Position numbers and translations under genes: made by a program. A model generated the notes under the pieces. It did not search any database. It had not been told where the DNA came from and was given only the letters and a program-made list of their open reading frames with translations. DNA of 64,000 bases from Rhodocyclaceae bacterium (GTDB lineage Bacteria > Pseudomonadota > Gammaproteobacteria > Burkholderiales > Rhodocyclaceae): the NCBI GenBank assembly GCA_030824275.1, contig JAVBXY010000005.1, positions 248,001 through 312,000 of the forward strand, written 5' to 3'. The stretch's first letter is position 1, and the number at the start of each line of letters is the position of its first letter. Positions 1,359 through 60,474 of the stretch are shown here, piece by piece.

Positions 1359-4300
1359 TTCTTCTCCTCGGCCTTGGGGTTCTTCGACAGTTTTTCCACC
1401 TTCGGATCGGCCCAGCCGCCGGTGACGGCGTACTCGAAGGCGAAGGCCTGGTCGAGAGGGTCCTTGAGAATCTTCTGCGCCACCCAGGCCACGGCGCCGG
1501 CCACCGGGTTGGCCAGCATGGCGCCGACGGCGATGGATTCGCCCAGCGCCGGCTGCACCCGCACCTTGAGGTTCTGGGTTTCGTTGCCGAGATTGACGTT
1601 GCCGCTCATCAGCACCTTGGCCGCCGGGCCCTGGATCTGGAGGTCGTTGGTGTCCATGACGCCACGGGTGACGGTGAACTGGCCGTTGATGCTGTCGAAG
1701 GCGAAGCCCTCGCTGAAGATGTCGCGGAAATCCAGGGTGATGCGGCGCGGCAGCGATTGCAGGCTGAGGATGCCGAGCAGGCGGCCGACGCCGGGTTCGA
1801 GCTTGTTGAACTGGCCGCCGGCGGCGTCGAGCTTGAGCTTGCCGTTGAGGCTCTGGTAGTCGATGTTGTAGGGCGCGCCGTTCCACGACAGCTGGCCGGA
1901 GAGGTTGGCGGTGCCGCGTCGCATGGCCTCGGGATAGCCGATACGCACCAGCAGCTTTTCGATGCTCTTGGCCGTCAGCTTGAAGTCGATCTGCGTGTCG
2001 GCAGTGGCCTGGCCGGGGCGCCAGCGACCATTGGCCTCCAGCGTGCCGTCCTCGTTTTTCGCCTCGATCCGGGTATTCCAGTAGCCCTCGCGGTTTTCGG
2101 CGGCAACGCGTACGGTGCCCAGCGGGCGATCCTTGAAGGAGAGCTGGTCCACGGTGATGTCGAGGGCCGGCAGCTGATCCAGCGCCTGGTCGCCATGTTC
2201 CTTCAATGCGGCTTTCAGTGCCTCCGGCGAGGTGGCCGTTTCGGGAATGGCGAACTGGCCGATGCGGCCGCTGAGCTTGCCTTTTCCGCTGCCGTTCCAG
2301 TCGAAGCTGCCGGCGAGTTCGCGGCTCTTGAGGTCGAACTTGGTGCTGGCCGGGGTTTGGCTCGGGGCCTCGGCTTTGCTGCCGCTGATGCGCACATCGT
2401 GGAAGTGTTTATTGGCCAGGGTGAGGTCGGTGGTCTTGAGGTCGAACTGGAGCGCGGGCAGGGCCGGCGCGCTGTTGTTCGTGCCGTTGCCATTGCCATT
2501 GCTTCCAGCGAGCATCTGGCGCCAGAAATCGGCATCGATGCGTGGCAGGTCTACCGTGATCAACAGGCTGCGATCCCTGGCCGCTGCGGGTGCGGTGGCG
2601 GGCATGCCGACAGCGATGAAGCCGCCGGTGATGGTCGCTGGCGTCGTGTCGTGACGGCGCGCGAGTTGCAGGCGGGCGATGCGGCCGAGGGACAGGTCCA
2701 GCTGGTCGCGCGGCACGGCGGTGATGGCAGCGGGGGGCGATGCCGCCGTACCGCCAGCGCCGACTTTTTTCGGTGATGCGACAACGGGCGGCGGCTTGCG
2801 CTCGAAGCTGAAAGGCAGGGCCTCGATGGCCGATTTGTTGAAGGGCTCGGGCAGACTGGAGGAAAGACCGACGAGGTTGGAGACGATCTTCACCTCGGCG
2901 TTCTTCTTCTTCACGCGCACGGTGCCGGTCCATTTGGTGCTGCCGGACAGATGCTCGAACAGGGGCAGCGGATACTGCTTGCGCAGGGCGGCGATGCCGA
3001 CGTCGCCGGCCGCATTGACCAGTACGTTGCCACCCTCGGCAGTTTTCACATCCACATTCAGCGGCGAGCCGAGCAGGGTGCCGCGGATGCCCTTGGCTTC
3101 CAGATGCTCGGCGGAGAAGTTGAGGGCGCCGCGCACCTCGGCCAGCGGCGGCAGGTCCGCATCCACCGTCAGGCGGTTGCCGTCGAAGCGGTAGTTGCCA
3201 TCGACCTTCGAGCTGGCGAGCTTGCGCAGCGGCAGGCTCAGCTTGAGGTCCAGTTCGCCGCTGCCCTCGGCCTTCATGTCCTCGGTGAAATGATCAATGC
3301 GATCCCCCACCGGGCTGGCTTCGATGAAGCGCAGGAAGTCGGCCGTCGGGCCAGCGGCCTTGCCGGTGACGGTGAGCAGTTCCTCCATCACTTCGAGGTC
3401 GGCGATTTCGGCGCGCACATCGCGCAGATTGACGCCGAAGATCTTGCCACTCTTGCCGGTGATAAGCATGCGCACGCCCTCGAACAGCAGTTCGCCGTCG
3501 ATGCCGGTGATCTCGGGCCAGGCGGCGGCGTAGCGCAGGCTGGCGTTGCTGAACTTGCCGCGCACCTCGAACTTGCCGCCCTTGCCGTCGCGGAAGGGGA
3601 ACTGGCGCAGGTCGCCCTTCAGCGTGAGCTTGGCTTCGCTGGCGGCACCGCTGAGGATGCTGGCCTTGAGCCAGTCGCGGGCATCCTTGCCGACCGACAG
3701 CGGCATGTAGCGCCAGACGGCGTCGCCGTTGCCGCGCGTGAGACGGGCGGAGAGGTCGATTTCGCCGGGGCCTTCGGCCAGGGCGTGCCAGCTGCCGTTG
3801 GCTTCGCCAGCGGCGTCCTTGTTATGGAAGCTGGCTTTTTGCAGATTCACCCGCACGCCGTCGGCGGCACCCTTCCAGCCGAGTTCGGCGGCGAAGGCTT
3901 CGAGTTCCAGGCGCGGTTCGGCGAAGACCGTGGGCAGGTCGAAGATCGTCTGTTTGCCGTCGAGGCGCAGGCTACCGCCTTTCTCGTTGCCGTCGATGCG
4001 ACCGCTGACACCGGCGATGCCGGGCACCGGGCCGAGGGCGACGAGGCCGAGGTCCTCGAAGCGGCCCTTGACCGTCCATTTCTCCAGGGCATCGGGCGCA
4101 CCCTTCCAGTCCAGGGCCAGGTCGAAAAGTCGGCCGCGCGGATTGTGGCGGGCCAGGCGCTCGCGGGTCGTCGCGTCCAGCGGCAGATAGGTGGCGAGCT
4201 TGGCCAGCAGGCCGAGGTCGAGGCCGTTGGCGCTGGCCTTGCCCTGCGGCGGACGATTGGCGGCGGCTTCCTGCCAGGCGATCTTGACGTCGGTGGAGGG

Positions 4301-5329
4301 CAGCTGGATGCCGTCGCGGGTGGCCAGCGTCAGGTGTTTGAGTTCCGCCTCGAAGCCGCCGTCGAGGCGACGTCCGGCGATGCGGCCGTCGAGGCGGATC
4401 AGGTCGAGCTCGGGCAGCTCGGGAGCCAGTTGCAGGCGCACGTCGGCCAGGCGCACGTCGGCGGTGGCGGCGACCAGTTGCTTGCGGGCGAAGCCCAGCC
4501 ACAGGCGCAGGGCGCCACTACCCTGGGGCAGGGCTACCGGATAGTCCACCCAGGTGCGCCAGCCAGCGAGATCGGCATAGTCCAGTTCGGCATAGACGTC
4601 GCCCTTCCAGGCTTCGAACTGGTCGATGTCATTGCCCTTGAAATCGCCACGGATATCGAGGCGGGCGGCCAGTGCGCGCGGCGGTTCGGCGGTGATACCG
4701 AAGCGGTGGCGGCGGCCCCGGTTGTCGAGCTGGAAATTCAGCTGCTTGAGCTCCAGTGGCGGCGCGGCACGCAGCTCGTCCTGCCAGGTGACGGCGGCGT
4801 TGCGGATGACGACGCGGTCCTGCACCAGCAGCCAGTCGGCGAAGCCTGCCTCGCTGTTCGGCTGCGGCGTGATCTCGAGACCGGCGGCGTAGTAGCGCCC
4901 TTCGCGGTCGCGACGCAGGACCAGGCTGGGCGCATCGAGTTCGAGTCGCGCCAGGCGCAGCTCGAAATGCCAGATGGAACTCCAGGCCAGCTCGGCCGCG
5001 ATCTCGTCGAAGCCCAGCGCCGGACGGCCCTGGGCGTCGCGAATCTCGAAGCCCTGAAGATCGAGGACAGGGCGCAGCCCGGCCCAGTGGGCAGCGATCT
5101 TGCGAATGCCGACGGGGCGGTTGATGGCGCTGCCGATGGCCTGCTCGATGTCGCCCCGGTAATTCTCGATCTGCGGCAGGACGGCGTAGCGCAGGGCCAG
5201 TATCAGCAGGGCAAAGGCGAAGTAGATGCCCACGGTCGTCCAGATCGCCACGCGCAGCGTCGTCACCAGCCACGGGCGGGTAGTTGCGAGACGACGGAAG
5301 TGGGAAAGAAAGGACGTGAAAGGGTGCAT
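1355..5329 (-). CDS. yhdP: YhdP-family AsmA-like envelope protein
   Basis: This protein of about 1324 residues has one membrane anchor near residues 22-48 followed by a long beta-rich periplasmic body, and a C-terminal AsmA-like region ending in a conserved segment (ANPVAGAVAWVAQKILKDPLDQAFAFEY). In E. coli, YhdP, TamB and YdbH are proposed to bridge the periplasm and carry phospholipids to the outer membrane. The ATG at 5329 places the anchor normally at the N-terminus; an in-frame TTG at 5359 is possible. It is translationally coupled to the nitrilase. Around residue 853 a proline- and alanine-rich linker contains a copy of the dispersed repeat, read as KKVGAGGTAAS, which looks inserted between beta-rich segments. 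Confidence 0.9.
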   Translation of the reverse strand: MHPFTSFLSHFRRLATTRPWLVTTLRVAIWTTVGIYFAFALLILALRYAVLPQIENYRGDIEQAIGSAINRPVGIRKIAAHWAGLRPVLDLQGFEIRDAQGRPALGFDEIAAELAWSSIWHFELRLARLELDAPSLVLRRDREGRYYAAGLEITPQPNSEAGFADWLLVQDRVVIRNAAVTWQDELRAAPPLELKQLNFQLDNRGRRHRFGITAEPPRALAARLDIRGDFKGNDIDQFEAWKGDVYAELDYADLAGWRTWVDYPVALPQGSGALRLWLGFARKQLVAATADVRLADVRLQLAPELPELDLIRLDGRIAGRRLDGGFEAELKHLTLATRDGIQLPSTDVKIAWQEAAANRPPQGKASANGLDLGLLAKLATYLPLDATTRERLARHNPRGRLFDLALDWKGAPDALEKWTVKGRFEDLGLVALGPVPGIAGVSGRIDGNEKGGSLRLDGKQTIFDLPTVFAEPRLELEAFAAELGWKGAADGVRVNLQKASFHNKDAAGEANGSWHALAEGPGEIDLSARLTRGNGDAVWRYMPLSVGKDARDWLKASILSGAASEAKLTLKGDLRQFPFRDGKGGKFEVRGKFSNASLRYAAAWPEITGIDGELLFEGVRMLITGKSGKIFGVNLRDVRAEIADLEVMEELLTVTGKAAGPTADFLRFIEASPVGDRIDHFTEDMKAEGSGELDLKLSLPLRKLASSKVDGNYRFDGNRLTVDADLPPLAEVRGALNFSAEHLEAKGIRGTLLGSPLNVDVKTAEGGNVLVNAAGDVGIAALRKQYPLPLFEHLSGSTKWTGTVRVKKKNAEVKIVSNLVGLSSSLPEPFNKSAIEALPFSFERKPPPVVASPKKVGAGGTAASPPAAITAVPRDQLDLSLGRIARLQLARRHDTTPATITGGFIAVGMPATAPAAARDRSLLITVDLPRIDADFWRQMLAGSNGNGNGTNNSAPALPALQFDLKTTDLTLANKHFHDVRISGSKAEAPSQTPASTKFDLKSRELAGSFDWNGSGKGKLSGRIGQFAIPETATSPEALKAALKEHGDQALDQLPALDITVDQLSFKDRPLGTVRVAAENREGYWNTRIEAKNEDGTLEANGRWRPGQATADTQIDFKLTAKSIEKLLVRIGYPEAMRRGTANLSGQLSWNGAPYNIDYQSLNGKLKLDAAGGQFNKLEPGVGRLLGILSLQSLPRRITLDFRDIFSEGFAFDSINGQFTVTRGVMDTNDLQIQGPAAKVLMSGNVNLGNETQNLKVRVQPALGESIAVGAMLANPVAGAVAWVAQKILKDPLDQAFAFEYAVTGGWADPKVEKLSKNPKAEEKK
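2743..2769 (+). repeat. Dispersed CGCCAGCGCCGACTTTT repeat, copy 1 (in yhdP)
   Basis: This is a full match to the core, preceded by GCCGTAC. On the yhdP strand it reads KKVGAGGTA. An upstream ACGGCGG at 2715-2721 is the inverted complement of CCGCCGT at 2743-2749, so this copy could form a stem with a 21-nt loop. Confidence 0.85.
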
Positions 5330-60443: not shown

Positions 60444-60474
60444 CGGCCTCCCCGTGCCGCCAGCGCCGACTTTC
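60412..60474 (+). repeat. Dispersed repeat, long form (62 bp), copy 14 (end of tetR gene)
   Basis: GCCGTAACCTCTACGGGTCA to CGCCAGCGCCGACTTT almost repeats the block at 45331-45393. ACGGG and CCCGT pair across GGCC-TGAC-GGCC. The TGA stop of the TetR gene is within the element. Confidence 0.9.

Follow-up and report, generated by a model that had tools for sequence, protein, structure and literature searches.

We describe a 26-bp motif that recurs through 64 kb of DNA (the window; positions 248,001 to 312,000 of contig JAVBXY010000005.1, assembly GCA_030824275.1) from a Rhodocyclaceae bacterium, and through its genome, a 3.58-Mb draft that is 85% complete. Our analysis indicates that this word is quite probably a DNA uptake sequence of the Rhodocyclaceae. 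We also lean towards the wider view that it represents a third, independently evolved DNA-uptake language in this family, with a bipartite 26-bp word, genus dialects, amino acids rewritten in hundreds of genes and a putative receptor. In our comparisons the motif behaves like the known uptake sequences in abundance, placement, spacing, substitution and dialects, though not in inverted pairs. A dispersed short repeat had been noticed in the window from its letters alone (the original prediction); that observation is confirmed as real, and is larger at genome and family scale than then described.

The motif was derived from 864 kb of the genome, namely 800 kb of stretches from four contigs plus the window; unless another sample is named, the statistics below refer to these 864 kb. 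It reads TCGCCGTNYC[GA]CCAGCGCCGACTTTT and is not a palindrome. Strong conservation is found at 22 of the 26 positions, and a copy was defined as a match with at most three mismatches over these fixed positions, the reversed pattern of the motif serving as the background control throughout. T is rare at position 6, and C and T are about equally frequent at position 7. The ends are sharp; the 60 bases on either side show no conservation except small composition effects. Matches with 0, 1, 2, 3, 4 and 5 mismatches number 53, 61, 60, 15, 7 and 9 for the motif and 0, 0, 0, 1, 2 and 6 for the control. Copies of the motif are either nearly perfect or absent. The original prediction had given a 17-bp core commonly preceded by GCCGT. 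This holds for 319 of 381 core matches (stretches of this genome and loci L031 to L142), with two variable bases in between, and the full word is the longer one given here.

In the window, the 17-mer core has 19 matches with up to three mismatches where 0.41 are expected, and none of 100 shuffles reaches 19. The full motif finds 17 sites, 10 on the plus and 7 on the minus strand, in keeping with the two orientations reported before. The two remaining core matches (53259 and 56774) lack the 5′ part and look like chance. About 14 copies had been listed; each of them is present within a few bases, those at 45331 and 60412 being the start of a 63-bp long form, and three more sites had been missed (Table 1). 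Thirteen of the 17 sites lie wholly within 12 genes, as called by our own codon-usage script, whose start positions are partly wrong. Pfam backs 11 of these genes, ten above the curated cut-off and ArgJ through PF01960 in its homologues; the twelfth (24989 to 26662) has only a HATPase_c match below cut-off. 

A count over the whole genome, proposed with the original prediction, gave 734 copies of the 17-bp core with up to two mismatches (375 in forward and 359 in reverse orientation), well above expectation; the reversed pattern has 3. The density is about one copy per 4–5 kb. The checks of strand, density and frame proposed alongside gave no consistent skew, even spacing and strongly biased frames. 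The coefficient of variation of the spacing is 0.73, compared with 0.99 ± 0.07 for random placement, and none of 2000 random runs was as low. Only 3 gaps between copies are shorter than 500 bp where 19 are expected. Spacing more even than random is a feature of uptake sequences as a class. The density also resembles that of Chi, which occurs about once per 5 kb; Chi and KOPS (FtsK-orienting polar sequences) are 8 bp long and strand-skewed. A role as Chi or KOPS was rejected on strand, as five contig stretches show no consistent skew and only one is uneven (C4, 9 versus 21, p 0.043).

Even spacing, high conservation and occurrence on both strands would also suit a binding site for a protein that organises or segregates the chromosome and needs such a site every few kilobases; substitution would then have made the sites, since their spacing is selected. 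The retention of the motif in genes despite amino-acid changes fits such a site as well. No consistent strand bias is seen, however, and the site families parS, matS and KOPS are fewer in number, palindromic or strand-skewed. Together with the distribution described below, this makes an organising site an unlikely explanation.

Placement relative to genes is not random either. Of 189 copies, 137 are in genes (169 expected from the coding fraction), 45 are between genes, although intergenic DNA makes up only about 11%, and 7 run across a gene end. Genic copies lie on the same strand as the gene in 74 cases and on the opposite strand in 63. The reading frames are far from uniform: 47 copies encode AV[PS]PAPTF, 50 the antisense KVGAGxTA and 19 RRxASADF, with 21 in the other three frames. 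Genes with the strongest codon bias hold the fewest copies, 0.84 per 10 kb compared with 1.67–2.84. The favoured frames encode simple peptides, as they would if amino-acid or codon composition had produced the motif as a side effect, through peptides such as AVPPAPTF or KVGAGGTA. We give this idea practically no weight; it is refuted by the reversed controls, by the share of intergenic copies and by the few or absent copies in most relatives within the family. The closest two copies are at least 314 bp apart, and for this reason no full inverted pairs were seen. A partial inverted partner accompanies 7 of the 45 intergenic copies, 4 of the 137 genic copies and 128 of 2000 random places. A terminator role was rejected, most copies being genic, close full inverted pairs being absent and partial partners few.

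The copy in argJ allows the origin of the motif to be followed. We aligned the ArgJ protein with the 119 next best of 8000 (120 rows in all; several of the named relatives are labelled Sulfuritalea or Rhodocyclaceae). None of the 120 rows is gapped in the 34 columns around the motif site, so that a mobile insertion is excluded here. Identities over the nine site residues are 3–4 in 18 rows, 5 in one row and 6–7 in 40. Compared with G265, which is motif-poor and belongs to a related genus, this genome differs in six of the nine residues. The argJ gene of our genome reads GTAAAAGTCGGCGCTGGCGGTACGGCG (VKVGAGGTA) at the site; a motif-poor example reads GTCGCCGTCGAAGGCGGCAAGGAC (VAVEGGKD). At the DNA level, 29 of 30 genomes gave a match, and the distribution of mismatches over 21 positions is bimodal, with 0–3 in 6 genomes and 7–12 in 23. 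At the same codons, G068 and G008 each have the motif in a dialect of their own.

The kdsC site gives a similar picture. An orthologue of KdsC was located in 27 of 29 genomes; by inspection, the motif is present only in the genome under study and the other 26 align without gaps. At the two sites closely examined, argJ and kdsC, the common 26-bp form was thus written by substitution. A wider ortholog pass with 336 queries yielded 312 alignments. Those in which each of the two 15-residue flanks reached 45% identity were kept; there were 52 of these, and 260 were dropped. The motif is shared in 31 of the kept alignments, some with near relatives, and 15 of the 21 rows without it are ungapped. Counted as distinct pairs, some of which are paralogues, 20 pairs from 15 queries do not share the motif, and 14 of them from 10 queries are ungapped, leaving 6 gapped. 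A looser first pass (53 of 195 alignments kept, the partner having the motif in 31) was less clear, as only 10 of 22 rows were ungapped across the motif, the gap being in the partner in 10 and in the query in 2.

Two other routes to the motif bear on these comparisons. Rickettsia palindromic elements (RPE), repetitive extragenic palindromic sequences (REP) with their mosaic elements (BIME), and miniature inverted-repeat transposable elements (MITE) are dispersed insertions, some of which are tolerated in genes, and a mobile palindromic element of the Rickettsia type was one of the two origins suggested in the original prediction. The motif is likewise dispersed. A short mobile element of REP, RPE or MITE type that inserts its own copy, genes included, would account for many sharp-ended copies, for a patchy distribution, for the rare long forms with their hairpin insert and for the alignments just given that are gapped at or near the motif (6 of 20 pairs, 12 of 22 first-pass rows). 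Unlike those elements, the 26-bp word replaces codons and leaves the length unchanged at the sites compared; no insertion is seen at argJ or kdsC or in 14 of the 20 wider pairs, and the copies are more evenly spread than random. For the common form, which is not palindromic, we therefore rejected a mobile palindromic element at these sites, and a mobile element in general is very improbable. Alternatively, the word could have been pasted over existing sequence in one step without change of length, through templated conversion by an unknown element. The ungapped argJ and kdsC sites, the two argJ states with none between and the few intermediates genome-wide would agree with this. Our analysis turned up no enzyme or template for it and we know of none, and the frame bias and the intermediate ArgJ peptides point to stepwise selection; we hold overwriting of this kind to be improbable.

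Long forms, 63 bp in length where the insert has 39 nt, are rarer than the 26-bp form. Ten were found, taken from a listing of 12 rows of which two were discounted for their differing shape. Two are in the window and the others on contigs C1, C4, C5 and C10 of the same genome. An insert of 20, 21 or 39 nt follows GCCG(T), ahead of the variable pair, and holds a small hairpin, whose stem letters vary among copies with the pairing mostly kept. Comparable long forms were seen in loci labelled Sulfurisoma (L048, L092 and L094). We note that an arsC-like gene of locus L080 carries an insert at a different point of the motif.

Among relatives the motif is abundant only in part of the family. Counts of the core with one mismatch in 395 sampled Rhodocyclaceae genomes gave 45–534 copies in 55 (a manual count from the table), all in seven genera, and 0–19 in the other 340. 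Sulfuritalea, Rugosibacter and Sulfurisoma are among the named motif-rich genomes, with 151 core copies in S. sediminicola BSN1. Outside the family, 16 of 368 genomes hold 1–3 copies of the 24-mer and the rest none (369-genome class count, up to two mismatches). In a set of 61 genomes searched with the 24-mer at up to three mismatches, 755 copies were counted in our own genome, 685, 807 and 343 in three others, 42 in one and 0–11 in the rest. Even within rich genera two genomes are poor, G265 with 10 copies and G270 (87% complete) with 1. In a two-protein tree, which is not firmly rooted, the rich genomes form two groups, and genera in which the motif is rare or weak fall between or among these; the motif has thus probably been gained, lost or exchanged more than once. 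Hundreds of copies in seven genera and almost none in relatives, even of the same genera, speak against a chromosome-organising site, as do the differing dialects.

The motif is genus-specific, and dialects by lineage surround a common core. They were read from samples of 60–246 kb holding 50 (G008), 16 (G001), 9 (G019), 13 (G171) and 22 (G068) copies. In G008, position 15 is A or G and T is preferred behind the T-tract; in G001 position 24 is often C. G019 has T at position 0, position 9 is mostly A in G171, and G068 has T at position 16 with a relaxed 5′ part.

By sequence, the motif is neither the DNA uptake sequence (DUS) of the Neisseriaceae nor the uptake signal sequence (USS) of the Pasteurellaceae. 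The DUS sequence is unrelated to the motif by inspection and, at up to about 13 nt, about half its length. Full inverted pairs are absent here, unlike in the DUS, and the density is about one copy per 4–5 kb. As described in PMC3630211 and PMC12616744, the dialects of the DUS follow the core-genome phylogeny around an invariant core; the motif is alike in its many copies (hundreds to thousands for the DUS) and in its dialects around a core. PMC12616744 describes the USS as a conserved core set in a longer motif of some 30 nt with AT-rich parts, again with dialects, and our motif shares the conserved core within an extended motif, the AT-rich parts and the dialects. On inspection, neither of the USS cores given there, AAGTGCGGT and ACAAGCGGT, lies within the motif, and 22 strongly conserved positions of 26 compare with a 9-nt core in the USS.

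Several observations weigh against the reading as an uptake sequence. PMC12616744 gives described uptake motifs as about 9–12 nt long, which 26 bp exceeds, with up to 32 nt for the USS when its weaker flanks are included. The lack of full inverted pairs separates the motif from both DUS and USS. Gradual drive would predict some intermediates, and there is little excess at 4–5 mismatches; likewise, none of the 29 genomes has an argJ gene at 4–6 mismatches. Of the 13 motif-rich genomes that entered the argJ comparison, seven lack the motif there, and a given motif site is not common to all rich genomes. The gapped alignments of both ortholog passes belong here as well. The import machinery does not discriminate: ComEC is present in 66 of 66 genomes, rich and poor, DprA exceeds the cut-off in 28 of 29 (the exception, motif-rich G001, has a sub-cut-off match only), full-length PilM is found in 30 of 31 (the exception is G068), and none of the three separates motif-rich from motif-poor genomes. 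Their presence in poor genomes too means that they permit the uptake model and do not test it. Unlike the DUS of the Neisseriaceae with its minor pilin ComP, the motif has no discriminating ComP; the ComP_DUS family is found in 63 of 66 genomes, both rich and poor, and G068 is without it. GspH/FimT, present in 33 of 36 genomes and missing in G068, G069 and G010, does not separate them either, and G069 is motif-rich. The charge of minor-pilin ectodomains showed no pattern by motif richness among pilin-like frames picked by regular expression, some of them from a second pilin cluster.

The strongest counter-evidence comes from G068, which carries the motif in its own dialect and has no match to ComP_DUS, GspH or full-length PilM. 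Its PilM-family match is weak (19 bits, compared with over 400 for full-length matches elsewhere), and the assembly is 98% complete in 330 contigs. These matches suggest that G068 may lack type IV pili, perhaps as a pilus-less lineage. Either pili were lost recently, or the assembly has a gap there, or the word works without pili. A chromosome-organising site would need no pilus and would suit G068. Viral contigs give a further point against uptake. Exact 24-mer copies occur in 90 viral-contig stretches from IMG/VR (L233 to L322), in 51 of which just one copy is found at up to three mismatches, and prophages or phages of motif-rich hosts may carry the word too. Further copies in these contigs are only moderately fewer than in the host, 0.78 versus 1.25 per 10 kb; with so moderate a difference, phage depletion was not used as a sign of self-marking.

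On balance of our analysis, the uptake-sequence reading fits best, given the abundance, even spacing, both strands, substitution, dialects and an import route through ComEC and DprA. The natural-transformation uptake signal suggested originally is upheld to this extent, with the reservation that pilus genes were not detected in G068 and that our search found no receptor. The word would be recognised by a putative DNA receptor on the surface of competent Rhodocyclaceae cells, such that DNA of the cell's own kind would be preferentially imported and recombined. Fragments with a good match would be taken up more often and, through homologous recombination, would take the place of the resident allele. 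Good matches would then accumulate by molecular drive, even where this alters several amino acids, and protein constraint would decide where, and in which reading frame, the motif sits. Substitution, evenness, both strands, amino-acid cost and dialects are what molecular drive through biased uptake predicts, and DUS and USS display them.

The copies in the window are collected in Table 1. The name kdsC-like for the gene at 20409 to 20945 is our assumption, based in part on the neighbouring gene. The copy at 23851 adjoins a minus-strand gene (24059 to 24730) whose product has a prepilin methylation motif (N_methyl) at its N-terminus and is pilin- or pseudopilin-like. A plus-strand gene at 46641 to 47315 encodes a lysine/alanine-rich repetitive protein (MADEKKAKKPAAKKAAAKPAAKK...), histone-H1-like by appearance, and is the likely source of the over-represented AAGAAGCCGGC words.

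Table 1. Copies of the 26-bp motif and of its long form in the 64-kb window
Location	Position	Strand	Remarks
yhdP-like gene (1355–5359, −)	2743–2768	+	0 mismatches; Pfam YhdP
argJ (8132–9370, +)	8992–9017	−	0 mismatches; site compared across relatives
Haem-oxygenase-like gene (10848–11537, −)	11195–11220	+	Motif scan, Pfam
3-Hydroxyisobutyrate-dehydrogenase-like gene (12496–13353, +)	12585–12610	+	Motif scan, Pfam
Same gene, second copy	12899–12924	−	3 mismatches; missed originally
Intergenic, flanked by convergent genes	17509–17534	+	Motif scan
HAD-phosphatase gene, kdsC-like (20409–20945, −)	20640–20665	+	Missed originally; compared across relatives
Cation/proton-exchanger gene with TrkA domains, near 3′ end	23851–23876	−	Pfam
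Predicted gene (24989–26662, +)	26226–26251	−	HATPase_c below cut-off; missed originally
Methyltransferase gene	28859–28884	+	Pfam
DUF455 gene	30881–30906	+	Translated AVPSAPTF; Pfam
Fructosamine-kinase-like gene	32600–32625	−	Degenerate, 3 mismatches; Pfam
LytTR response-regulator gene	36874–36899	−	0 mismatches; Pfam
Ribonucleotide-reductase small-chain gene, N-terminal part	45330–45392	+	Long form: GCCGT, 39-nt insert, variable pair, CACCAGCGCCGACTTTT
3′ end of phosphoenolpyruvate carboxykinase gene (48660–50498, −)	48635–48660	+	0 mismatches; one-base overlap
Intergenic	51887–51912	−	Degenerate, 3 mismatches
Begins at 3′ end of gene 59757–60443	60412–60474	+	Long form; nearly same 39-nt insert as 45330–45392

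To our knowledge, uptake tags have so far been reported from two bacterial families only. The 16-mer and three related 14–15-mers were not found in the literature searched, although subscription papers or preprints may hold them. The ArgJ site shows a protein sequence reshaped for a non-protein purpose. If the motif is indeed an uptake sequence, the Rhodocyclaceae would provide a third, unrelated case, in environmental bacteria, and uptake languages would be seen to evolve repeatedly. The family would then also offer an independent system for finding receptors, and gains, losses and switches of dialect within one family could serve to test the theory of molecular drive.

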